Positions 14,840-27,003 of a DNA stretch of 60,865 bases are shown in pieces. Each line of letters begins with the position of its first letter. The stretch's first letter is position 1. Origin of the DNA: Acidobacteriota bacterium (GTDB taxonomy: Bacteria; Acidobacteriota; Thermoanaerobaculia; UBA5066; Gp7-AA6); the NCBI GenBank assembly GCA_027307335.1, contig DAHUXD010000046.1, positions 1-60,865 on the forward strand, given 5' to 3'. Both the position numbers and the translations under genes were made by a program. The notes under the pieces are model-generated. The model saw only the letters and a list, made by a program, of their open reading frames with translations, did no database searches and was not told the origin of the DNA.

Positions 14840-15901
14840 CTATGCCAGCTCGGCCGGAGGCTTCGTCATCAGGCGCGCGCGGCGCTCGCTCCGCTCGAGG
14901 GCGAGGCGCACGAGCTCGTCGAGGAGCCCGGGCAGCGGCAGCCCGCTCGCCTCCCAGAGCTTCGGGTACATCGAGATCGCCGTAAAGCCGGGCAGCGTGT
15001 TGATCTCGTTGACGAGGACGCGCCCGCTGCCCCGCTCGAGGAAGAAATCCACACGCGCCATCCCCGACACCCCGCACACCCGGAAGACTTCGACCGCGAG
15101 GCGCCGCGTCTCCTCGGCGACCGCGGCGGGCACGTCGGCGGGGATGCGGAGCTGCGCCTTGTCGTCGCGGTACTTGTCGTCGTAGTCGTAGAACTCGTGT
15201 CCCGGAATGACCTCGCCCGGGATCGAGGCGCGCGGCTCCGCGTTCCCGAGGACCGCGCACTCGAGCTCGCGGGCGTCGATCCCCTCCTCCACGAGCACGC
15301 GCTCGTCGTAGCGGAAGGCGTTCGCCGCGGCCGCGGCGAGATCCTCGCGCCGCTTGACCTTGGTCACACCGACGGACGATCCGCCGTTGGCGGGCTTGAC
15401 GAAGAGCGGCAGCGGCAGACCGGCGGCGCGGGCGAGATCGCCCGGCCCGTGCAGCACGACGGCGCGCGGCGTGGGGATCCCGGCGTCGCGCAGGAGGGCC
15501 TTGAAGACCCCCTTGTCCATGCCGACCGCGGAGGCCGTGACCCCCGCCCCGACGTACGGCACGCCGAGCGTCTCGAGGAAGCCCTGCAGCGCGCCGTCCT
15601 CGCCGGTCGTGCCGTGGACGATCGGGAACACGACGTCGATACGGCCGGGCGCGACCTCCGCCGGCACGACCGCGGTGCCCGCCGGGTCGGCCGTCCGGAA
15701 GCGCTCCGGCACCGGCCCCGATGCGAGCAGCGCTCCCGACTCCGAGGGCGGCAGGAAGCGGCCGGTCTCGCTGATCGCGATCGGGACCACCTCGTAGCGC
15801 GCGGCGTCGAAGGCGCCCGCAATCGTGCGCGCGGAGACGCGCGAGACCTCCCGCTCGACCGACTTGCCCCCGAACAGGACGGCGACGCGAAGCCGCGTCA
15901 C
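14840..15901 (-). CDS. ddl: D-alanine--D-alanine ligase
   Basis: 353 residues, ATP-grasp ligase joining two D-Ala for peptidoglycan. N-terminal VLFGGKSVEREVS binds the first D-Ala. PIVHGTTGEDGALQGF near 95, LFVKPANGGSSVGVTKV near 160, EVIPGHEFYDYDDKY near 225 and VNEINTLPGFT near 305 are all canonical. The start is a GTG that overlaps the serA stop (GTGA). Its place at the end of a serine-biosynthesis run is unusual but compact. Confidence 0.95.
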   Translation of the reverse strand: MTRLRVAVLFGGKSVEREVSRVSARTIAGAFDAARYEVVPIAISETGRFLPPSESGALLASGPVPERFRTADPAGTAVVPAEVAPGRIDVVFPIVHGTTGEDGALQGFLETLGVPYVGAGVTASAVGMDKGVFKALLRDAGIPTPRAVVLHGPGDLARAAGLPLPLFVKPANGGSSVGVTKVKRREDLAAAAANAFRYDERVLVEEGIDARELECAVLGNAEPRASIPGEVIPGHEFYDYDDKYRDDKAQLRIPADVPAAVAEETRRLAVEVFRVCGVSGMARVDFFLERGSGRVLVNEINTLPGFTAISMYPKLWEASGLPLPGLLDELVRLALERSERRARLMTKPPAELA

Positions 15902-17475
15902 CAGCTCACCACCCGCACCTCCTCGACGGCGGGGATGCCGCGCAGGCGGGCGAGCGCCTGCTCCGGCGGCGGCGAGTCGACCGTGATCACGGCGGCCGCG
16001 CCTTCGCTCTTCCCGCGCGCGAGCGAGAAGTTGGCGATGTTGACGCGCGCCTCCCCCAGCACGGTGCCGACGCTGCCGACGACTCCGGGCACGTCGCGGT
16101 TGCGCAGGAAGACGACGGTCCCCTCGGGCCGGAACTCGAGCGGCAGGCCGTCGACCTGGACGACCCGCGCGTCGCGGCCCGAGTACATGGTCGCGTCGGC
16201 GCTCGCGGTCTTGCCTGCGCCGGAGAGCGAGAGCCGGATCGACCGGGCGTAGGTCCCCGCCTCCTCGTGGCGCGTCTCGGAGACCGCGAGGCCGCGGTCC
16301 TGCGCGAGGTAGAGCGCGTTGACGTAGTTGACGGTCTCGGGCGTGTTCTTCTCGAGCGCGCCCTTGACCGCCGCGACCGCGATCGGACGCAGCAGGTCCT
16401 CGGGCATGCCCCAGGTCTCGACGGCGAGGCGCTGAAGGTGCCCGCCGACGAGGCTCGCCAGGAAGTGCGCGGTGCGCTCGGCGAGGCGCATCCAGCCCGC
16501 GGCCCCGTCGGCGTCCTTCAACCCGCGGAACGGCAGGTTCACCGCCGGCACGTAGGGGGCGCCCGCGAGCGCCTCGAGCAGCGCCTCCACCGTCTGGATC
16601 GAGACGCGCTCCTGCGCCTCGACCGTCGAGGCGCCGAGGTGCGGCGTCGCGACGACGTTCGGGAGCCTCGGCAGCGGGTCGGAAGGGTCGGGCGGCTCGG
16701 GCTCGAAGACGTCGAGCGCCGCGCCGGCGAGACGGCCGTCCGCGAGCGCCGCCCGCAGCGCCTCGCGGTCGACGAGGCTCCCCCGAGCGACGTTGACCAG
16801 GATCGCGCCGCGCTTCATGCGCCCGATCTCCGCGGCGCCGAGGAGCGGCTTGCCCTGGCCCATCGCGGTCGAGTGGAGCGTGACGACGTCCGCCTGCTCG
16901 AGGAGCTCGTCGAGCGGAACGAGCGGCACGCCCATCTCGCGCGCCTTCTCGGCCGGCAGGAACGGGTCGTGGCCGAGGAGGCGCGCCTCGAAGGCGCGGG
17001 CGCGCGCCGCGACGCGGGAGCCGACCTGCCCGAGGCCGACGATGCCGACGGTCTTGCCCGCGAGCTCGGTGCCGACGAACTTCGACTTCTCCCACTTCCC
17101 CTGCGCCATCGACGCGGCCGCCTCGGGGACGCGCCGCAGCAGCGCGAGGAGCACCGCGAACGTGTGCTCGACGGCCGACACCACGTTGCCGGTCGGCGAG
17201 TTCAAGACGAGCACGCCGCGCGCGGACGCCGCGGGCACGTCCACGTTGTCGACGCCGACGCCGGCGCGGCCCACCACCGTCAGCTTCGGACCGGCCGCGA
17301 GGAGCGCCGCGTCCACCTTCGTCGCGCTCCGCACCAGCAGCGCGTCCGCGTCGGCGAGCGCGGCGAGCAGCTTCTCGCGCGGCGCGCCCGCGAGATCCAC
17401 GACCTCGTGCCCCGCCTTCCGCAGCCGGTCGAGCCCGGCCGGCGAGATCTTCTCGGCGACGACGACCCGGCTCAC
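15898..17475 (-). CDS. serA: D-3-phosphoglycerate dehydrogenase (long ACT form)
   Basis: 525 residues, the long form of SerA. It oxidises 3-phosphoglycerate to phosphohydroxypyruvate. The NAD site is GIVGLGQVGSRVA near 145-157. Catalytic residues are the Arg of VNVARGSLVD near 233, a Glu near 262, and the His of TPHLGAST near 283. An intervening domain (about 315-450) and a C-terminal ACT domain (RDVPGVVGSVGTVLGEARVNI) suggest serine feedback control. GTG start, overlapping the aminotransferase stop. Confidence 0.96.
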   Translation of the reverse strand: MSRVVVAEKISPAGLDRLRKAGHEVVDLAGAPREKLLAALADADALLVRSATKVDAALLAAGPKLTVVGRAGVGVDNVDVPAASARGVLVLNSPTGNVVSAVEHTFAVLLALLRRVPEAAASMAQGKWEKSKFVGTELAGKTVGIVGLGQVGSRVAARARAFEARLLGHDPFLPAEKAREMGVPLVPLDELLEQADVVTLHSTAMGQGKPLLGAAEIGRMKRGAILVNVARGSLVDREALRAALADGRLAGAALDVFEPEPPDPSDPLPRLPNVVATPHLGASTVEAQERVSIQTVEALLEALAGAPYVPAVNLPFRGLKDADGAAGWMRLAERTAHFLASLVGGHLQRLAVETWGMPEDLLRPIAVAAVKGALEKNTPETVNYVNALYLAQDRGLAVSETRHEEAGTYARSIRLSLSGAGKTASADATMYSGRDARVVQVDGLPLEFRPEGTVVFLRNRDVPGVVGSVGTVLGEARVNIANFSLARGKSEGAAAVITVDSPPPEQALARLRGIPAVEEVRVVSW

Positions 17476-18581
17476 GACGCCGCCTCCGCCGCGCTCTCGT
17501 CCAGCGCGACGAGGAGGGCCTCGAGCGAGGCGAGGTCCACGTCGCCCATGTGCCCGATGCGGAACGTGGACGCCTTCCACTTCCCGTAGCCGCCGCCGAT
17601 CGTGAAGCCCCGCTCCTTGACCCGCGCCACGAGCGCCTCCGCCGAGACGCCGGCCGCCGGCCGGAGGCACGTCACGGTCCACGGGCGGAAGCCGGCCGGC
17701 GCGACCGGAGCGTGGCCCCGCGCGGCCGCCCACGCCTCCACCCTCGTCCGCAGCGCCTCGTGCCGCGCCCAGCGGCCCTCGAGCGTCTCGGCGAGGATGT
17801 GGTCGAGCTGCACGTCGAGCGCGAAGAGGTGCGGCGTCGACGGCGTGTACGGCGTCTGGTGCTTCGCGGCGAACGCCTCGGCCTCCGAGATCCGGAGGTA
17901 GTGCGCGCGGGAGCGCTCCTTCGCGCGGGCCCGGTAGCGCGCCGACGCGAACGCCACGCCGAGGCCGGGCGGCATGGCGAGCGCCTTCTGGGAGCCCGAG
18001 AGCGCGAAGTCGAGGCCCCACGCGTCGCACTCGACGGGCGAGCCGGCGAGAGAGGTCACGACATCGGCGAGCACGAACGCGTCGGAGGACTCGCGCACAA
18101 CCTTCGCAAGAGCGGCGAGATCGTTGAGCGTTCCGGTGGACGTCTCCGAGTGGACCAGGGTGACCGCGTCGTACCGCGCCTTCGCGAGCGTCCGCCGCAC
18201 GTCGGCGGGATCGACCGGCTTTCCCCAGGGCGTCTCGAGGACGTCCGTCGCATACCCGAGGTCCCGGGCGCAGGCGGCCCACCGCTCCGAGAAGGCGCCG
18301 CACGTCACCGCGAGGACCCGCTCCGGCGCGAGGTTCGAGAGCGCCGCTTCCCAGAGGCCCGTCGCGGCCGACGTCGCGGTGAAGACGAACCCTTCGGTCC
18401 GGAAGACCCGCGCGAGGCGCGGCGGGATGTCCGCGTAGAGGTCGGCGAACGCCTTGCCGCGGTGCCCGATCGCCTCGTGCGCCATCGCCTGCCGCACCGC
18501 GTCGCGCACCCACACCGGACCCGGCAGGAAGAAGCGAACCTGACCGGGCCTTCCGCCCGTGGAATCGAACGCGGCCGTCAT
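17472..18581 (-). CDS. Class V aminotransferase, probable phosphoserine aminotransferase
   Basis: 369 residues, PLP fold type I class V. The PLP-binding Lys is in ALSGSQKALAMPPG near 188. Other blocks: LPGPVWV and HRGKAFADL near the N-terminus, VHSETSTGTLND near 140, VVTSLAG near 165 and GYGKWK..FRIGHMGD near the C-terminus. The sequence resembles alanine-glyoxylate/serine-pyruvate aminotransferases more than classical SerC. Position between serA and a HAD phosphatase gene points to conversion of phosphohydroxypyruvate to phosphoserine. A TAGAAT hexamer ends 9 bases before the ATG. Confidence 0.88.
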   Translation of the reverse strand: MTAAFDSTGGRPGQVRFFLPGPVWVRDAVRQAMAHEAIGHRGKAFADLYADIPPRLARVFRTEGFVFTATSAATGLWEAALSNLAPERVLAVTCGAFSERWAACARDLGYATDVLETPWGKPVDPADVRRTLAKARYDAVTLVHSETSTGTLNDLAALAKVVRESSDAFVLADVVTSLAGSPVECDAWGLDFALSGSQKALAMPPGLGVAFASARYRARAKERSRAHYLRISEAEAFAAKHQTPYTPSTPHLFALDVQLDHILAETLEGRWARHEALRTRVEAWAAARGHAPVAPAGFRPWTVTCLRPAAGVSAEALVARVKERGFTIGGGYGKWKASTFRIGHMGDVDLASLEALLVALDESAAEAAS

Positions 18582-18590
18582 GCGAGCCGG

Positions 18591-18596
18591 ATTCTA
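18591..18596 (-). promoter_or_regulatory. -10-like hexamer before the aminotransferase gene
   Basis: Minus-strand TAGAAT, 9 bases before the ATG at 18581 with no Shine-Dalgarno sequence. It overlaps the stop codon of the upstream HAD gene, so it would be an internal promoter giving a leaderless serine-pathway transcript. Confidence 0.4.
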
Positions 18597-19253
18597 CTTG
18601 CGCCCGGCGAAGCCCGCGAGATACGCCGGCAGATCCGTGATCCGTTCGAGCAGGGCGTCGGGAGCGAGCGCTTCGAGCGCTTCGCGCGGGCGCGAGCCGC
18701 CCGGCACCAGGGCGACCGCGCATCCGGCGGCGCGGGCGAACTCGAAATCCACCTCCATGTCGCCGACGACGACGGTCTCCTCCGATCGCGCGCCGGCGCC
18801 CGCGATGAGGCGCCGGAGCATCGCCGGATCCGGCTTCGGCGGGGTCGCGTCGTCGGGACCGCCGATGCCGGTGAAGTGACGGGCGACGCCCTTCGCGTCG
18901 AGGATCAGGCGCGAGAACCGCGCGGGCTTGTTCGAGGCGAGCGCCATCGCATGGCCCGACGCCTCGAGCGCCTCGAGCGTCTCGCGCGCGCCCGGAACGA
19001 GATGCGATCGCTCGACCGCGACCTCCGGGTAACGCTGCCGGAAGAGCCGGACGCCCTCGGCGGCGCGCTCGGGACCGACCGCCTTCTCGAGGAGCCGCTC
19101 GAGGCCGTGTCCGACCATCGCGCGCACCGCGTCCGGCGTCGGCGCCGGCTCCCCGAGGCGCGCCATCGCGTACGCGAGCGCGTCGCCGATCGCCGCGTAT
19201 CCGTCGATCAGGGTTCCGTCGAGATCGAAGACGACGAAGGGCGGCCGGCTCAA
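18594..19253 (-). CDS. HAD-superfamily phosphatase, possible phosphoserine phosphatase
   Basis: 219 residues. HAD motif I FDLDGTLIDG at the N-terminus has the nucleophile and acid/base Asp. Motif II is ALASNKPARFS near 105, the Lys of motif III is in PPKPDPAML near 143, and motif IV is VVGDMEVDFEFA near 160. The cap is of the phosphoglycolate-phosphatase (Gph) type. With serA and an aminotransferase directly downstream, it is a good candidate for the last step of serine synthesis, though Gph-type enzymes are promiscuous. TTG start, overlapping the previous stop (TTGA). Confidence 0.85.
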   Translation of the reverse strand: MSRPPFVVFDLDGTLIDGYAAIGDALAYAMARLGEPAPTPDAVRAMVGHGLERLLEKAVGPERAAEGVRLFRQRYPEVAVERSHLVPGARETLEALEASGHAMALASNKPARFSRLILDAKGVARHFTGIGGPDDATPPKPDPAMLRRLIAGAGARSEETVVVGDMEVDFEFARAAGCAVALVPGGSRPREALEALAPDALLERITDLPAYLAGFAGRK

Positions 19254-20947
19254 GCCGTCTTCCGGCTCCCGCGGCCGCTCTCGCGGCTCTCGCGATCGAG
19301 TCCGGCCGCCCGCAGCACCGTCTCGACGATCGCATCCCAGTCGCCGAACGACAGCGTCGGCACCGAGCCCTGGAACGGGCCGTCCGAGATGCGCGCGACG
19401 GGCTCGACGACCTCCGGACGCGGAACGCCCGTGCGCACGACCTCGATCTTCGGCATCGCGAGCGACTTGTAGCCCTCGATCAAGACCAGATCGCAGCCGC
19501 GGAACTCGCGGCGCAGGATGTCCGCGAGCGCCTCCTCCTCGCCGAGGTGCCGCGCCGTCGTCCGGCCGGGCGTCACCAGCGCGGCCACCGTGGCGCCGGC
19601 GGCCGCGAGGCGCTGAGAGTCCTTTCCGGGCGTGTCGTCCTCGACGTCGCGCGTCGTGTGCTTCAGCGTCCCCACGACGAGCCCGCGCTCCTTCAGGCGC
19701 GGCACGAGCTCGACGAGGATCGACGTCTTGCCGGAGTCGTGACCGCCGACGAACGCGACGACGGCGGGGCGGCGGTCCGGGTAGAGCAGATGCGGCTCGC
19801 GGCGCGGAGCGAAGTGGGCCGCGGCCTCGAAGTGGCGCGCGATCTCGCCGCGCAGGCCCTCGCCGGCGTCGACGGCGCGCCGGAAGTCGGCCGATCCCGT
19901 CAGCAGGTCGATCGCCGGCCGCTCGTCGAACTCGTACGGCTCCGTGCGCCAGCGGAAGTCGAGCGGGGCGGCCCGGCGGGCCGCCTCGACGAGGCGCAGC
20001 CCGGTCTGGAACGGGCGGAACGCGGCACGGTCCGTCACGTGGAGGCGCGCTCCGCCGCAGGCCTGGCCCGCGTGCTTGTCGAACATCGGGCGGAACTGCG
20101 CCGGGAAGAAGCGCACGCCGGGCAGCGCCAGCGCGTTGAGCGAGTCCGAGAAGGCGAAGGCGTCGAGCCACGGCGCGCCGAACACCTCGAAGGGCCGCGT
20201 CGTGCCGCGCCCCTCGGAGAGGTTCGTGCCCTCGAGGAGGCACATGCCGGGATAGACGAGCGCCGTGTCCGTCGTCGGCATGTTCGGCGAGGGCGGCGTC
20301 CACGGGAGGCCCGCGTCGGCGTACGTCATGTCGCGCGCCCAGCCGGCGGCCGGCATCACGACGAGATCGAGGTCGAGCCGCCGCTCCGCCGCGAGGAGAA
20401 GCGCGAGCTCGCCCGCGGTCATTCCGTGGCGGACCGGGATCGGGTGCAGCCCCACGAAGGTGAGGTAGCCCGCCGACGCGGGCGCGCCCTCGACCTCGCC
20501 GCCGATCGGGTTCGGGCGGTCGCAGACGACGAAGCGCAGGCGCGCCGCGGCGCAGGCCTCCATCGCGAGGAGCATCGTCCACACGTAGGTGTAGTACCGG
20601 GTCCCCACGTCGGCGACGTCGAAGACGATCGCCTCGAGGTCGGCGACGTGCTCGCGCTTCGGCTTCAGGCTCTCGGCGGTCGGCCCGTACAGCGAGACGA
20701 CGGGAAGGCCCGACGGCGCGTGGATCGAGCCCTGGACCGCCTCCATGTAGACGGCCCCCCCCTCGAGGCCGTGCTCCGGCCCGAAGAGCCGGACGAGCCG
20801 CACGTTCGAAGCCGCGCGCAGGGCCCTCCAGGTGGGCACCCCGGACGACGTCATGCCCGAGCCGTTGATGATGAGGCCGACACGCTTGCCCGCGACGGGC
20901 CACAGCCTCTCCAAGAGGACGTCGATGCCGAAGCGCACGTCGGGCAT
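19250..20947 (-). CDS. Fusion of NamZ-type exo-N-acetylmuramidase (DUF1343) with MobB
   Basis: 565 residues in one open frame. Residues 1 to about 388 are a NamZ/DUF1343 domain: FGPEHGLEGG near 55, FDVADVGTRYYTY near 108, CDRPNPIGG near 142 and TNLSEGRGTTRPFE near 240. NamZ releases MurNAc from the non-reducing end of glycan fragments. Residues 394-565 are a complete MobB domain: Walker A FVGGHDSGKTS, LKHTTRDVEDDTPGKDS and LVLIEGYKSLAMPKIEV. MobB binds GTP and assists MobA in guanylating molybdopterin. No signal peptide is visible, so the NamZ half would be cytosolic. A TAAGAT hexamer lies 10 bases before the ATG. I know of no such fusion. Confidence 0.9.
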   Translation of the reverse strand: MPDVRFGIDVLLERLWPVAGKRVGLIINGSGMTSSGVPTWRALRAASNVRLVRLFGPEHGLEGGAVYMEAVQGSIHAPSGLPVVSLYGPTAESLKPKREHVADLEAIVFDVADVGTRYYTYVWTMLLAMEACAAARLRFVVCDRPNPIGGEVEGAPASAGYLTFVGLHPIPVRHGMTAGELALLLAAERRLDLDLVVMPAAGWARDMTYADAGLPWTPPSPNMPTTDTALVYPGMCLLEGTNLSEGRGTTRPFEVFGAPWLDAFAFSDSLNALALPGVRFFPAQFRPMFDKHAGQACGGARLHVTDRAAFRPFQTGLRLVEAARRAAPLDFRWRTEPYEFDERPAIDLLTGSADFRRAVDAGEGLRGEIARHFEAAAHFAPRREPHLLYPDRRPAVVAFVGGHDSGKTSILVELVPRLKERGLVVGTLKHTTRDVEDDTPGKDSQRLAAAGATVAALVTPGRTTARHLGEEEALADILRREFRGCDLVLIEGYKSLAMPKIEVVRTGVPRPEVVEPVARISDGPFQGSVPTLSFGDWDAIVETVLRAAGLDRESRESGRGSRKTA

Positions 20948-20957
20948 GAGCGGACGG

Positions 20958-20963
20958 ATCTTA
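20958..20963 (-). promoter_or_regulatory. -10-like hexamer before the NamZ-MobB gene
   Basis: Minus-strand TAAGAT, 10 bases before the ATG at 20947. It overlaps the mogA stop codon. No ribosome-binding site is seen between it and the start. Confidence 0.4.
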
Positions 20964-21467
20964 GCCCGAAGCGCCGGGATGGTCCGGCCGCTCGCCGCGC
21001 AGGAGGGCGACCGCGTGCGGCAGGAGCGGCAGGATCGCGGCCAGACAGTCCGCCGCGCCCTTCGGCGAGCCGGGCAGCGCGACGACGAGCGCGCGCCGCG
21101 CGACGCCGACGACCTGCCGCGACAGGTACGCGGCGCCGAAGCCCCGTCCCGTGTCGGCCCGCATCTTCTCGGCGAGGCCGGGGACCTCGAAGTCGATCAC
21201 GGCGCGCACGCCCTCGGGAGTGCGGTCCCGCGGGGCGACGCCGGTGCCGCCGGTCAGGACGATCAGGTCGGCGTCTTCCGCCTCGACCCGCTCGCGCAGA
21301 GCGCGGGAGACCTCGGCGGCGCCGTCGGGGATGGTCGCCTTCGCCACGACCCGGTGCGCCACGCCGGAGCGCGCCAGGGTTTCCTCGACGGCGGGCCCGC
21401 CGCGGTCCTCGCGGGCCCCGGCCGAGACGCCGTCCGACACCGTCAGGATCGCCACGCGGAGGCTCAC
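20961..21467 (-). CDS. mogA: Molybdopterin adenylyltransferase MogA/MoaB
   Basis: 168 residues. It adenylates molybdopterin before molybdate insertion. The fold signature is clear: LTVSDGVSAG near 9, LIVLTGGTGVAPRDRTPE near 70 (MPT-binding loop), and VVALPGSPKGAADCL near 128. GTG start only 20 bases from the divergent moaA start. It heads a minus-strand run with the NamZ-MobB, HAD, aminotransferase, serA and ddl genes. Confidence 0.93.
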   Translation of the reverse strand: MSLRVAILTVSDGVSAGAREDRGGPAVEETLARSGVAHRVVAKATIPDGAAEVSRALRERVEAEDADLIVLTGGTGVAPRDRTPEGVRAVIDFEVPGLAEKMRADTGRGFGAAYLSRQVVGVARRALVVALPGSPKGAADCLAAILPLLPHAVALLRGERPDHPGASG

Positions 21468-21472
21468 CTCGT

Positions 21473-21480
21473 TAATATAG
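21473..21480. promoter_or_regulatory. Shared bidirectional -10 core between mogA and moaA
   Basis: The octamer taatatag gives TAATAT on the plus strand (9 bases before the moaA ATG) and TATATT or CTATAT on the minus strand (6-7 bases before the mogA GTG). The two start codons are only 20 bases apart, so both transcripts would be leaderless and start from one nearly symmetric AT core. Confidence 0.5.
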
Positions 21481-21487
21481 ACCGCCC

Positions 21488-22516
21488 ATGGCGACGCTCG
21501 ACCGCTACGGCCGCCGTCTCGGCAACCTGCGCCTGTCGGTCACCGACCGCTGCAACCTGCGCTGCGCGTACTGCATGCCGGAGCGCGAGTACGTCTGGCT
21601 GCCGAGGAAGGACATCCTCGACTTCGAGGAGATCGGCCGGCTCGCCGACGTCTTCGGCTCGCTCGGGACGGACCGGGTCCGCCTGACGGGCGGCGAGCCG
21701 CTCGTGCGGCACGACCTGTCGAAGCTCGTGGAGCTCCTGGCCGCGAAGCCCTGGCTGAAGGACCTCGCGATGACGACGAACGGCGTGCTCCTCGAGGCGC
21801 AGGCGGAAAGGCTCCGTGCGGCCGGTCTGCACCGCATCACGGTCAGCCTCGACACGCTGCGGCCCGAGCGGTTCCGCGAGCTCGCCCGCGTCGACGAGCT
21901 CCCGCGCGTGCTCCGCGGCATCGAGGCCGCGTCGCGTGCCGGCTTCGCGTCGCTCAAGCTCGACACGGTCGTCATCCGCGGGGTCAACGACGACGAGATC
22001 GTGGCGCTGCTCGAGCGCGCGAAGGAGTGGGGCGCCGAGATCCGGTTCATCGAATACATGGACGTCGGCGGCGCGACGCACTGGTCGCGGGAGCGCGTCG
22101 TCTCGCGCGAGGGCATTCTCCGCGCCATCTCCGACGCCTACGGCAGCGTCGAGGCGCTCGGGGCCGAGGAGCGCGCCGCCGCCCCCGCCGAGCGCTTCCG
22201 CCTTCCGGACGGCACGACGTTCGGCGTCATCGCCTCGACGACGGCGCCCTTCTGCGCCGCGTGCGACCGGAGCCGCCTCACCGCCGACGGGGTCTGGTAC
22301 CTCTGCCTCTACGCCGCCCGCGGGATCGATCTGCGCAAGCCGCTGCGGGAGGGCGCCTCGGAGGACGAGCTCCGCGCGCTGCTCTCCGGCGCGTGGTCGT
22401 TCCGCACCGACCGCGGCGCCGAGGAGCGCCTGGGGCTGCGGGAGCGGACGCCGCTCCGGGACGTCCCCGATCTCCGGAGGGACCCGCACCTCGAGATGCA
22501 CACCCGGGGCGGCTAG
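21488..22516 (+). CDS. moaA: GTP 3',8-cyclase (molybdenum cofactor synthesis)
   Basis: 342 residues, radical SAM enzyme that turns GTP into 3',8-cyclo-GTP, the first step of molybdopterin synthesis. The SAM cluster motif CNLRCAYC is at about 19-26, GGEP near 62, and the C-terminal GTP-side cluster ligands are in FCAACDRSRL plus the Cys of WYLCLY near 278. The essential C-terminal Gly-Gly is present (HTRGG). Its stop codon overlaps that of the convergent PhzF-like gene by the palindrome CTAG. Confidence 0.97.
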   Translation: MATLDRYGRRLGNLRLSVTDRCNLRCAYCMPEREYVWLPRKDILDFEEIGRLADVFGSLGTDRVRLTGGEPLVRHDLSKLVELLAAKPWLKDLAMTTNGVLLEAQAERLRAAGLHRITVSLDTLRPERFRELARVDELPRVLRGIEAASRAGFASLKLDTVVIRGVNDDEIVALLERAKEWGAEIRFIEYMDVGGATHWSRERVVSREGILRAISDAYGSVEALGAEERAAAPAERFRLPDGTTFGVIASTTAPFCAACDRSRLTADGVWYLCLYAARGIDLRKPLREGASEDELRALLSGAWSFRTDRGAEERLGLRERTPLRDVPDLRRDPHLEMHTRGG

Positions 22517-23418
22517 GCCTCAGGGACCTCCATCGTCCCCTCGGCGACGAGGACGCTCGCGCCGCCGATCCGCGCCTCGGTGACGGCGCCGCCCCTCTTC
22601 TCGACCCGCGCCTCGAGCACGCTCGGCCGGCCCATCTCGACGCCCTGGGCGATCCTGTAACGAAATGACCCTTCCGGCTGCGCGTCGAAGTGCGCGAGCG
22701 CCGCCGCGAGCGCGACGTTGGCGCTGCCCGTCGCCGGGTCCTCCGGGACGCCGTCCTTCGGCGCGAACATGCGCGTGCGGAGGTCGAAGTCGTCGCCGCT
22801 CCGGACGTAGAGATGGACGTCGGCGGGGACGCCCGCGGCCACGAGCGCGTCGACGCCGGCGGGATCGGTCCGAGCTCGTGCGAGCGATTCCCGCGAGGCG
22901 AGCTCCGCGAAGAGAAACGGCAGCCCTACCGAGAACGCGGCCGGCGCGTGCACGGCCGTGACCACGTCGCGGGCGTCGAGCGAGACGGCCGCGGCGAGCG
23001 TCTCCGGCGACACGCTCCTCCCCACCGAGAGGGGCGCGGGAGCGGACAGCTCGCAGAAGACCGCGCCGCCGGCGCGGCGCTCGATCGTGATCGGCACGAG
23101 CCCCGCCTTCTCCTCGAAGACGACCGTCCGCGTTCCGGCGAGCGGTCCGAGCTCGCCCGAGATCGCCAGCGCGAATGCGGTCCCGACGTTCGGGTGGCCG
23201 GCGAACGGCACCTCGATCGACGGCGTGAAGATGCGCACCCGTCGGGTGTTTCCGCTCTCGGGCGGCAGCACGAACGACGTCTCGGAGAAATTGAACTCCC
23301 GCGCGATCCGCTGCATCTGCGCGTCCGAGAGCCCGCGCGCGTCGGGCAGCACCGCGAGCGGGTTGCCGCCGAAGATCGCGTCGGTGAAGACGTCGCAGTG
23401 GAGGTAGCGATGGCGCAT
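22513..23418 (-). CDS. PhzF family isomerase/epimerase
   Basis: 301 residues, two-domain PhzF/diaminopimelate-epimerase-like fold. The family Glu is in FNFSETSFV near 44, and VPFAGHPNVGTAFAL near 68 and PEDPATGSANVALAAAL near 215 are the twin conserved blocks. The phenazine operon is absent, so this is a generic member of unknown substrate. I use the ATG at 23418, preceded by a strong AAGGAGA site; an in-frame ATG at 23442 is less likely. Confidence 0.9.
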   Translation of the reverse strand: MRHRYLHCDVFTDAIFGGNPLAVLPDARGLSDAQMQRIAREFNFSETSFVLPPESGNTRRVRIFTPSIEVPFAGHPNVGTAFALAISGELGPLAGTRTVVFEEKAGLVPITIERRAGGAVFCELSAPAPLSVGRSVSPETLAAAVSLDARDVVTAVHAPAAFSVGLPFLFAELASRESLARARTDPAGVDALVAAGVPADVHLYVRSGDDFDLRTRMFAPKDGVPEDPATGSANVALAAALAHFDAQPEGSFRYRIAQGVEMGRPSVLEARVEKRGGAVTEARIGGASVLVAEGTMEVPEA

Positions 23419-23430
23419 GGCGGCTCTCCT

Positions 23431-23529
23431 TCGACGCGGCACTCCCCCGCCGCGCGTCTACTTCTTCGACGCCCGGCCCTCGCCTCGCTCGGCCCGCGCG
23501 TCGACGCGGCGTTCCCCCGCCGCGCGTCT
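23431..23529. repeat. Two 29-bp direct repeats between moaC and the PhzF-like gene
   Basis: Copies at 23431-23459 and 23501-23529, exactly 70 bases apart, differ at two positions. Each contains a GC-rich inverted repeat (gacgcggcg / cgccgcgcgtc) around a C-rich loop. They fill most of the 112-base gap downstream of moaC and upstream of the PhzF-like start, so they may serve as tandem transcript-end hairpins. Confidence 0.55.
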
Positions 23530-23530
23530 C

Positions 23531-24085
23531 CTAGCGGCCCCGGCGGTACGTCCCGGAGCGGCCGCCGCTCTTCTCGAGGAGCGCGATCTCGCGGATCGTG
23601 GCGCCGCGGTCGAGCCCCTTGACCATGTCGTAGAGGGCGAGGCATGCCGCCGCGACCGCGGTCAGCGCCTCCATCTCGACGCCGGTCTTCCCGGTGATGC
23701 GCGCGGTGGCGGTCACGACGGCTTCCCGCTTCGGCCGCGAGAGCTCGACGTCCACCTCCACGGACTCGAGAGCGAGAGGGTGGCAGAGCGGCACGATCTC
23801 GGACGTGCGCTTGGCGGCCTGGATGCCCGCGAGCCGGGCGACCGCGAGCGCGTCTCCCTTCGCGAGCCGTCCGCCCTCGAGCGCCTCGAACGCCGCGGCG
23901 CCGAGCGCGACGACGCCCCGCGCGACCGCGACGCGGCGAGTGGCGCCCTTCTCGCCGACGTCGACCATGCGGGCGCGCCCGCGCGCGTCCACGTTCAGCA
24001 CGCTCCGCCGGAGCGGCTCGGTGCGCCGCGGCCGGGCCGGCCGCTCGCGGCGGCGGGGCTTGTCCGGCTTCTCCGAGTCGCTCAT
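23531..24085 (-). CDS. moaC: Cyclic pyranopterin monophosphate synthase
   Basis: 184 residues, slightly longer than usual because of a basic N-terminal tail of about 25 residues (RRRERPARPRR). It converts the MoaA product to cyclic pyranopterin monophosphate. Canonical blocks: MVDVGEKGATRRVAVA near 40, LCHPLALESVEV near 98, GKTGVEMEALTAV near 130 and YDMVKGLDR near 150. The ATG overlaps the mobA stop (ATGA). moaD, moaE and moeA are not in the window. Confidence 0.95.
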   Translation of the reverse strand: MSDSEKPDKPRRRERPARPRRTEPLRRSVLNVDARGRARMVDVGEKGATRRVAVARGVVALGAAAFEALEGGRLAKGDALAVARLAGIQAAKRTSEIVPLCHPLALESVEVDVELSRPKREAVVTATARITGKTGVEMEALTAVAAACLALYDMVKGLDRGATIREIALLEKSGGRSGTYRRGR

Positions 24086-24672
24086 GCCCGCTCCCGCTGC
24101 GCCGCCCAGTCCTCGAGCGTGTTCAGGTTGACGAAGGCGGCGCCCGACGGGTCGATCGCCGCCCACTCGGCCTCCTCGAAGATCTCGGCGCCGACCGCCT
24201 CGGCGAGCCCGCGGAGCGACAGGTCGCCCCGCGCGATCCGCCGCGCGGCCTCCGGCGCGGCCGCCTTCCGCCCCACGCCGGCGCGCGGCTGGAGGCGCCC
24301 CTCCGCGCGCGGGAGCACGGCCGCCGCGTTCGAGGCGAGCGAGCGCTCCGCGATCGCCGTCAGGAGCGCCGGCATGACCGCCGGCAGGTCGACCGCGAGC
24401 ACGAACACGCGGTCGCGCGCCTCCGCGAGCGCACGGACGAGGCCGTGGATCGCGGCGTGCTCGGGCGCTCGATCGAGCACGACCCGCGCGGGGCCGACGG
24501 GAGAGGCGGGCCGCTCCTTCGCGACGACGAGGACCTCTTCGAAGAGCACCGCGAGGCGGGTCGTCTGGAACTCGAGGAGCGTCGCCGCTCCGTACGGGAG
24601 CGCGGCCTTGGGGCGCCCCATTCTCCGCGAAGCGCCGCCCGCGAGCACGGCGGCCGACATCGGCAGCGTCAT
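24082..24672 (-). CDS. mobA: Molybdenum cofactor nucleotidyltransferase (MobA-like)
   Basis: 196 residues. It attaches GMP (or possibly CMP) to the molybdenum cofactor. LAGGASRRMGRPKAALPYG near residue 10 is the nucleotide-binding motif, AVDLPAVMP near 92 the metal-binding Asp, and FVNLNTLEDW near the end. LAGG, DLP and the NLNT motif favour guanylyltransferase MobA over cytidylyltransferase MocA, but the molybdenum hydroxylase in this window would often use the cytosine form. The preceding TAGCAT hexamer is 9 bases from the ATG. Confidence 0.88.
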   Translation of the reverse strand: MTLPMSAAVLAGGASRRMGRPKAALPYGAATLLEFQTTRLAVLFEEVLVVAKERPASPVGPARVVLDRAPEHAAIHGLVRALAEARDRVFVLAVDLPAVMPALLTAIAERSLASNAAAVLPRAEGRLQPRAGVGRKAAAPEAARRIARGDLSLRGLAEAVGAEIFEEAEWAAIDPSGAAFVNLNTLEDWAAQRERA

Positions 24673-24681
24673 TCGAACCGG

Positions 24682-24687
24682 ATGCTA
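24682..24687 (-). promoter_or_regulatory. -10-like hexamer before mobA
   Basis: Minus-strand TAGCAT, 9 bases before the mobA ATG and with no ribosome site between. It would yield a leaderless mobA-moaC transcript. Confidence 0.4.
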
Positions 24688-24730
24688 CATCCCCCGAGCG
24701 GCTCGCGCCTGGGGGCGAAGGCGGATCCGG

Positions 24731-25579
24731 CTACTTCTCCGACCCGCCGCCGCCGAGGATGATCGGGAGACCGCTCTTCGGGTTGCCGACGACGACGACC
24801 TTCGCGTTCGGGCTCATCGCGAGCTTCTCCGTCGCCTCGATGCCCTTCCACTCGAGCAGCTGCGGCGAGATCCCCTGGGCCACGATCTTCTGGAAATCGG
24901 CGATGCCCTGGGCCTCGATGCGTTTGCGCTCGGCCTCCTGCTGCTCCTTGGCGAGGACGAACTTCATCTGCTCGGACTCCTGCTCTCGCTTCAGCTTCTC
25001 CTGGATCGCGTTGGCCACGATCGCCGGCAGTCCGATCTTCCGGAGCAGGACGGAATCGATGATGACGCCGCGGCCGTCGGTCATCTTCTTGACGAGGTCC
25101 TGGGTCTCCCGCGCCACCTTCTCGCGCTCGGAGGAGTACAGCGCCTTCGCGTCGTAGGACGCCGTGATCTCCCGGATGGCCGAGCGCACCTGGGGAATGA
25201 CGATGACCTCCGCGAAGTTGGCGCCCACCGTCTTGTAGACGTCGGCGGCCTTCGCCGGATCGAGGCGGTAGAGGACCGAGCCCTCGAGGTCCATCATGAG
25301 GCCCTCCTTGGACGGGACCTCCGCCGTCTCCTTGAGCTCCTCCGTCCGGATCGACATCTTGTGGACGCGCGTGAACGGCACGATCAGGTGTACGCCGGGC
25401 GGCAGCGAGTTCGGAGAGACGCTGCCGAAGAAGTCCTTCACGCCGACGTGCCCGGCCGGGACGACCGTGATCGGCCCGCCGATCGCGACCAGCACGATGA
25501 CGATGAGGAGGATGATCGCGTTGCGCGCGACGCGCGGGTTGGAGCCCGCGTTGGGGACGATCTCGAAGGTCTTGGCCAT
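24731..25579 (-). CDS. SPFH/prohibitin family membrane protein
   Basis: 282 residues. One N-terminal membrane helix (about 20-40, AIILLIVIVLVAIGG) precedes a Band-7 domain (about 45-225; VVPAGHVGVKDFFG, SIRTEELKETAEVPSKEG). A coiled coil rich in Glu, Lys and Gln follows (about 185-235; EKLKREQESEQMKF), then a Gly-rich tail. Prohibitin-type proteins form large ring assemblies around membrane protein complexes. A GGAGG ribosome site precedes the ATG. No NfeD partner or FtsH gene is adjacent. Confidence 0.92.
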   Translation of the reverse strand: MAKTFEIVPNAGSNPRVARNAIILLIVIVLVAIGGPITVVPAGHVGVKDFFGSVSPNSLPPGVHLIVPFTRVHKMSIRTEELKETAEVPSKEGLMMDLEGSVLYRLDPAKAADVYKTVGANFAEVIVIPQVRSAIREITASYDAKALYSSEREKVARETQDLVKKMTDGRGVIIDSVLLRKIGLPAIVANAIQEKLKREQESEQMKFVLAKEQQEAERKRIEAQGIADFQKIVAQGISPQLLEWKGIEATEKLAMSPNAKVVVVGNPKSGLPIILGGGGSEK

Positions 25580-25590
25580 GTGTCCTCCGT

Positions 25591-25684
25591 GGGGTCAGGT
25601 CTCTGAATGTGTGAGTTTGGTCCTCGGAGGTCCCGCGTCCGCAGGCCAATGCCCGCAAGGTCACATTTTCAGAGACCTGACCCC
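25591..25684. mobile_element. 94-bp element with near-perfect terminal inverted repeats (MITE/REP-like)
   Basis: The left end ggggtcaggtctctga.. and right end ..tcagagacctgacccc are inverted copies over about 22 bases (one end has two extra A). They enclose about 50 bases with no open frame. The element begins 2 bases from the ribBA stop and ends 11 bases from the SPFH start. No transposase is nearby; I recall similar GGGGTCAGGTCT ends beside REP-associated (Y1) transposases, which a search would test. Confidence 0.55.
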
Positions 25685-25686
25685 GT

Positions 25687-26907
25687 CTAAACGAGCTTGA
25701 GCAGGTGCCCCATCTTGTTCTTCTTCGCCTCGAGGTACTTCCGGGAGCGGTCGGTGGGATTCACCTCGAGCGGGACGCGCTCGACGATCTCGAGGCCGTA
25801 GCCGTCGATCGCCACGTACTTCGACGGGTTGTTCGTCATCAGCCGCATCTTGCGGACGCCGAGGTCGCGCAGGATCTGGCAGCCCACGCCGTAGTTGCGG
25901 ATGTCCGGCGGGAACCCGAGCTTCTCGTTGGCCGACACCGTGTCGTGGCCCTGGTCCTGGAGCTCGTACGCCTTCAGCTTGTTCAGGAGACCGATGCCGC
26001 GGCCCTCCTGCAGGAGGTAGAGGAAGACGCCGCGGCCGGCCTCGACGATCTTCTCCATCGCGAGCTCGAGCTGCTCGCCGCAGTCGCAGCGCGCCGAGCC
26101 GAACACGTCGCCGGTCAGGCACTGCGAGTGGACGCGGACGAGCGTCGGCTCGTCCTCGCGGATCTCGCCGTGGACCAGCGCGAGGTGCTCCTCGTGCGTG
26201 ACGTCGCTGCGGTAGGCGTAGAGGCGGAACTCGCCGAGGCGCGTCGGCAGGTGCGGCGCCGCGATGCGCTCGACCAGCCGCTCCGTCTTCATGCGGTAGC
26301 GGATCAGGTCGGCGACCGTGACCATGCGGAGGCCGTGGCCCGCGCAGAACTTCGCGAGGTCGGGGACCCGCGCCATCGTGCCGTCCTCGTTCATGATCTC
26401 GCAGAGAACGGCGGAGGGATTCAGGCCGGCGATCCGCGCGAGGTCGACGGACGCCTCGGTCTGACCCGCGCGCTTCAGGACGCCGCCGCGCTGGGCGCGC
26501 AGCGGGAACATGTGGCCGGGACGGTTCAAGTCCGACGGTCGGGTCGCGGGATCGATCGCGGTCTTCACGGTCGTCGCGCGGTCGGCCGCCGAGATGCCGG
26601 TGGTCGTGCGGCCCCGCGCCTCGATCGACACGGTGAAGGCGGTGCCGAAATTCGACGTGTTCTCCGAGACCATCGGCGGCAGCTCGAGCGCGTCGCAGCG
26701 CGACTCGGTCAGCGCCAGGCAGATCAGGCCCCGCCCCTCGCGCGCCATGAAGTTGATCGCCTCGGGCGTCACCTTCTCGGCCGCGACGACGAGGTCGCCC
26801 TCGTTCTCCCGGTCCTCGTCGTCGACGACGACGACGAACTTGCCGGCCTTGAGGTCCTCGATCGCCTGCCCGATCGTGGCGAAGGGAGAATTCGATGTCT
26901 TCGGCAT
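25687..26907 (-). CDS. ribBA: Bifunctional DHBP synthase / GTP cyclohydrolase II
   Basis: 406 residues that carry both riboflavin entry reactions. Residues 1-205 are RibB ([12 protein letters not shown] near 28, [17 protein letters not shown] near 128) making 3,4-dihydroxy-2-butanone 4-phosphate from ribulose 5-phosphate. Residues about 206-406 are RibA, with zinc ligands in [14 protein letters not shown] near 258 and [11 protein letters not shown] near 295. No other rib genes and no FMN riboswitch are visible in the short upstream gap. Confidence 0.96.
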
Positions 26908-26956
26908 CCGCTCATCTTCTCACGAGGGGCGCAAATGGCTGATGAGGCGAGAGAAC

Positions 26957-26997
26957 GCCCCTCACCCTTGCCCCTCTCCCGCAGGGAGAGGGGTGAC
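26957..26997. repeat. Dispersed palindromic repeat, copy 2
   Basis: The core cccctctcccgcagggagagggg at 26971-26993 is a perfect 10-base-pair stem with a 3-base loop, with a gcccctcaccc flank on its left. It lies just past the mutase stop codon and upstream of ribBA. Copy 1 is the same sequence in reverse orientation. Confidence 0.7.
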
Positions 26998-27003
26998 GTC
27001 CTC

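Follow-up and report, generated by a model that had tools for sequence, protein, structure and literature searches.

The 20 bases that separate the start codons of the divergent genes moaA and mogA in this Acidobacteriota genome probably constitute a minimal bidirectional promoter of the housekeeping-sigma type, from which both genes would be expressed as leaderless mRNAs. This reading, to which a probability of about 0.7 is assigned, is based on the sequence of the region and its relatives. It retains part of what the earlier note had proposed, and several comparisons of sequence support it: the core fits -10 elements on both strands, the -10 of moaA is kept in relatives, leaderless-type starts are enriched in the genome and the geometry recurs elsewhere in the order; the particular mogA-moaA core, in turn, was found in no other genome. 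In the proposed mechanism, RNA polymerase would bind the near-palindromic TAATATA in either orientation, without a -35 element. Rightward, TAATAT would be melted and transcription would start at about 21484-21488, producing a moaA message with a leader of 0-4 bases; leftward, TATATT would be melted and a start at about 21467-21469 would give a mogA message with a leader of 0-2 bases. Both messages would be translated from the 5' end without Shine-Dalgarno contact, and the core would hold one polymerase at a time.

The features of the region are the following, in coordinates of the window (the whole stretch of DNA analysed, 60,865 bases):

19250..20947, minus strand: fusion of NamZ and MobB located downstream of mogA; a TAAGAT of its own precedes the ATG by about 10 bases
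20961..21467, minus strand: mogA/moaB-type gene of the molybdopterin adenylyltransferase family, starting with GTG and encoding 168 aa; matches to PF00994 and TIGR00177 exceed the cut-off
21463..21470, minus strand: GAGGTGAG, Shine-Dalgarno-like string overlapping the mogA GTG; could serve only GTG 21455
21468..21487, no strand: divergent gap between the mogA and moaA start codons, 20 bases, reads CTCGTTAATATAGACCGCCC
21473..21479, no strand: symmetric TANNNTA core (TAATATA) common to both putative -10 elements; the -11A and -7T positions (plus-strand A21474 and T21478) pair reciprocally between strands
21473..21478, plus strand: putative -10 TAATAT of moaA, 9-base spacer to the ATG; nominal start site 21485, plausible 21484-21488
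21479-21474, minus strand: putative -10 TATATT of mogA, 6-base spacer to the GTG; nominal start site 21467, plausible 21467-21469
21488..22516, plus strand: moaA, GTP 3',8-cyclase, 342 aa; TIGR02666 356.5 bits (cut-off 284.05)
22513..23418, minus strand: PhzF-family isomerase, convergent with moaA
23531..24166, minus strand: moaC
24082..24672, minus strand: mobA-like nucleotidyltransferase

The mogA-moaA junction and its shared core

The ATG of moaA (21488, plus strand) and the GTG of mogA (21467-21465, minus strand) are divergent and 20 bases apart, in agreement with the gap originally described at 21468-21487. Due to an in-frame TAA stop of moaA at 21473, ATG 21488 is the sole moaA start there. 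The nearest named moaA loci belong mostly to Acidobacteria and 'Rokuibacteriota' MAGs, with identities of up to ~68%.

The near-symmetric core that had been claimed to supply a -10 for both strands was confirmed in the sequence, with TAATAT leaving a 9-base spacer to the moaA start and, on the other strand, TATATT separated from the mogA start by 6 bases. With each start placed 7 bases beyond the final T of its hexamer, the nominal sites (21485 and 21467) are 18 bp apart, which falls within the definition of a bidirectional promoter as a symmetric common -10 with start sites separated by 7-25 bp (PMC10268837). A distance of 18 bp is given as the commonest among bacterial bidirectional promoters (PMC12825309) and is the one that makes the important positions -7T and -11A of opposite strands pair with each other, TANNNTA being exactly the arrangement explained in PMC10268837. 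The first T of TANNNT precedes the start codon by 15 bases in moaA and by 12 in mogA, as in TA-led genes; the moaA spacing is at the far end of the range found in the own genome, and an alternative reading of the core for this gene is TATAGA with a 6-base spacer. As the nominal +1 of moaA is a C, the true start has probably moved to G21484 or A21488, and the candidate start sites of mogA (21467-21469) are purines throughout on the minus strand. The string TTAATATA occurs a single time in the 60,865 bases (mean of 0.00 in shuffles), and random 20-base gaps at the GC content of the window carry a suitably placed TANNNT on both sides in 0.35% of cases and on one given side in 2.2%. A search of 20900-22000 for sigma70-type -35/-10 pairs gave no match, and both assigned starts lack a usable Shine-Dalgarno site.

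Beside mogA, a single ORF of 565 aa (19250-20947, minus strand) joins an exo-beta-N-acetylmuramidase (NamZ_N, NamZ_C) to MobB. This fusion is present also in the genomes G001 and G002, and full-length or near-full-length matches without an inner stop were detected in G001, G003, G004, G005, G007, and G011; no paper naming NamZ and MobB together was found in the literature searched. At 20948-20960 the TAA stop of mogA overlaps the TAAGAT located ~10 bases before the ATG of the fusion, which may place another leaderless-type start within the mogA unit.

Leaderless-type starts in the genome and its relatives

The own genome was sampled over 404,566 bases, made up of the window and another ~344 kb; a simple codon model called 298 genes in this sample. 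A TANNNT with a spacer of 5-11 bases precedes 26/159 unit-first starts, compared to 3/121 operon-internal starts and 13/4642 internal in-frame start codons (Fisher p 2e-30 for unit-first starts vs internal codons), and the spacers of the 26 are all 6-10. Shine-Dalgarno-like motifs follow the opposite trend (44/159 unit-first and 61/121 operon-internal starts). Altogether, these counts indicate that leaderless-type starts are a real minority class in this genome, with a share that agrees with the mean of 13.3% of genes predicted for Acidobacteria, a phylum for which 3/3 genomes were predicted to be leaderless-rich (PMC3160421). TANNNT on both sides was detected in 2/38 divergent pairs sampled, about what the independence of leaderless genes is estimated to predict. 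One of these two is a 13-base gap (L150:3727-3741, G000 contig C27) between divergent predicted ATGs, in which TAAGAT and TAGAAT each overlap the opposite start codon.

In the comparison with relatives, start codons were picked by nearness to the homology-based start, before motif inspection. Within the two nearest families (own genome included) moaA shows a TANNNT 6-9 bases from the start in 5/5 cases and a Shine-Dalgarno site in 0/5. In G001, G002, G004, and G006 this element is TAGAAT, 6-7 bases before the start, even though the upstream neighbours differ. The moaA element was found in 10/14 cases in the whole order, 11/25 in the rest of the class, 15/76 among all usable named loci and 7/16 among usable loci titled Acidobacteria (of 17), the count leaving out L031 (duplicate of L001), L087 and L110 (match starts inside), L124 (contig edge), and L126 (no start). 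For mogA, the same family presents TATAGT in G001, at a distance of 10 bases from the start, and, in G002, AATAAT at 6 bases, which is not a strict TANNNT and was scored absent. The count for mogA in the order, leaving out L031 (duplicate) and L049, is 2/17, with 0/2 in family f3 and 0/12 in family f2. In f3 mogA follows moaC with a 4-base overlap, and outside its own family it mostly lacks a -10 and sits close behind moaC or on the strand of moaA.

None of the other genomes examined showed the divergent mogA-moaA junction. Both genes are on separate contigs in G001, G002, G004, and G006 (4/4 relatives, two nearest families), they share one strand in 9/9 more distant loci holding both, and a mogA match at E 1e-15 or better was detected in 0/80 named moaA loci (flanks of at most 3 kb, reduced in some cases by the end of a contig). 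Thus, the comparison of the gap with relatives that had been suggested gave a divided answer: moaA orthologues keep their -10 at 6-9 bases, whereas the exact common core is not conserved at the locus because the pair itself is not conserved. For the same reason, the proposal that this layout keeps the two cofactor genes in balance is unsupported and was rejected.

In G001, a single strand carries mobA, moaC, mogA, and namZ-mobB as a group, with moaA located on a different contig. Based on this one comparison, moaA (with or without phzF) probably came to occupy, in reverse orientation, a position between moaC and mogA. The most likely origin of the pairing is that moaA, pointing the other way, became the neighbour of a mogA whose leaderless promoter was already in place.

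Alternative readings of the 20 bases

Symmetric -10 elements may look bidirectional without both being in use, and the -10 of mogA is less conserved across relatives than that of moaA. Both points would agree with the core being a leaderless promoter in one direction, either for moaA or mogA, with the other gene read from a leadered promoter inside the coding sequence of its neighbour. This explanation is considered unlikely, since both hexamers are in the register of other leaderless-type starts of the own genome (spacers 6-10), no -35/-10 pair is present in either of the neighbouring coding regions and no Shine-Dalgarno site precedes either assigned start. A different arrangement would keep only moaA leaderless and have mogA start at GTG 21455, in frame and four codons after GTG 21467, with a short leader and GAGGTGAG as ribosome site. 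The motif GAGGTGA, 8 bases before GTG 21455, is complementary to the anti-Shine-Dalgarno sequence; the statement that neither gene has a ribosome site is correct for the assigned starts and needs amending for mogA, in which GAGGTGAG overlaps its own GTG. This shorter mogA is disfavoured and appears quite improbable from the comparisons made: a start at codon 5 would drop the Arg/Lys that precedes V/A/I in 17/19 relatives, as read off their N-termini (in the remaining two, the start of L046 was placed further upstream and the residue is not displayed, and L049 is without Arg/Lys), a message beginning at 21467-21469 would lose most of GAGGTGAG, and the same-family relatives L032 and L033 are without a motif of this type.

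The AT core could also be bound by a regulator, for instance ModE, and act as an operator instead of a promoter element. The moa genes of Escherichia coli are activated by ModE, and CGTTAATATA loosely resembles a ModE half-site. However, there is just one such half-site and it is imperfect, the TAGAAT of relatives lacks the flanking bases, and no ModE-type protein (TIGR00637) was found in the genome, in a search that was positive as a control in 7/14 named genomes. Similarly, a search of 15000-27000 gave no Rfam family, the Moco element included, above the gathering threshold. The ModE operator, a very remote prospect on these data, and the Moco riboswitch were rejected, and a bidirectional leaderless promoter remains the preferred reading of the gap.

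Recurrence of the geometry and relation to known systems

It can be hypothesized, at somewhat less than even odds, that throughout the order a 7-bp TANNNTA between starts 15-30 bases apart is a recurrent and selectively maintained control region, complete for two leaderless genes, in which the choice of orientation by the polymerase alone would set both outputs, mogA-moaA being a newly formed example. In 19 genomes belonging to the order, the pattern CAY-N4..9-TANNNTA-N4..9-RTG was detected at 118 places, compared to 59 for a control in which the core was displaced; the corresponding binomial p of 5e-6 is only rough, as it counts places, some of them overlapping or orthologous. A reversed-pattern control gave a higher number than TANNNTA because AT..AT is commoner than TA..TA. 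Predicted divergent starts flank 10/67 of the TANNNTA loci on both sides vs 2/20 of the displaced-control loci, a fraction that is not significant alone (Fisher p 0.44). The 67 loci comprise all 7 places of G000 (the own genome) and 60 from ten other genomes of the order, among the matches listed, with a few places of G003 and G015 left out. The ab initio gene caller used here is crude and overlooked some clear pairs, such as L206, L198, and L182.

The own genome carries the pattern at 7 places, two of which are between predicted divergent starts: mogA-moaA and a pgk/gamma-glutamyltranspeptidase pair (L153:1501-1526, G000 contig C18:50557-50582) with a 20-base gap, TATTCTA and the same 5+7+8 layout as mogA-moaA. 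Between species, a CYTH/FAD-domain pair of G011 and G016 (L163 and L195, 1504-1523) has a gap identical at 20/20 bases, vs 47/60 in each coding flank. An HhH-GPD glycosylase/UPF0158 pair (G005 and G009) and a PHP-domain pair (G011 and G016) are also conserved.

If this interpretation is correct, two genes would be run by ~20 bases without leader, ribosome site or -35 element, which is close to the smallest possible control region for a divergent pair. In such a system the competition between polymerase orientations would be directly testable without the confounding effects of 5'-UTRs, and in lineages that use leaderless mRNAs gene rearrangement could make a working divergent promoter at once.

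Divergent transcription is reportedly widespread, according to a 2021 study. Each half of the architecture proposed here is known: -10 promoters that work in two directions have been described, and so have leaderless genes with an adjacent -10. Searches of the open PubMed Central library gave no paper that combines the two in a recurrent architecture, with leaderless pairs served by one common -10. Regarding leaderless expression, a -10 placed beside the start codon is all that expression requires in Deinococcus radiodurans, and the -10 elements adjacent to ORFs in Deinococcus-Thermus resemble the present case in having a bare -10 by the start codon, although they belong to another phylum and the words 'divergent' and 'bidirectional' are absent from the main text of the report (PMC12340547). 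The TA-led leaderless genes described by Zheng et al. (2011) are alike in having TANNNT ~10-12 bases before the start and no Shine-Dalgarno site, with Acidobacteria among the predicted users; that study treats genes singly and its main text does not contain the word 'divergent' (PMC3160421). The two-way arrangement is close to that of the 18-bp class of sigma70 promoters studied by Warman, Grainger and colleagues, in which a near-symmetric -10 is likewise read on both strands, starts are 18 bp apart and the -35 is dispensable (PMC12825309; PMC10268837). Those promoters were defined by mapped start sites and the sites given here are nominal; 'leaderless' does not appear in the main text of PMC10268837. 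In contrast, mogA-moaA would yield two leaderless mRNAs, with the entire intergenic region acting as promoter.
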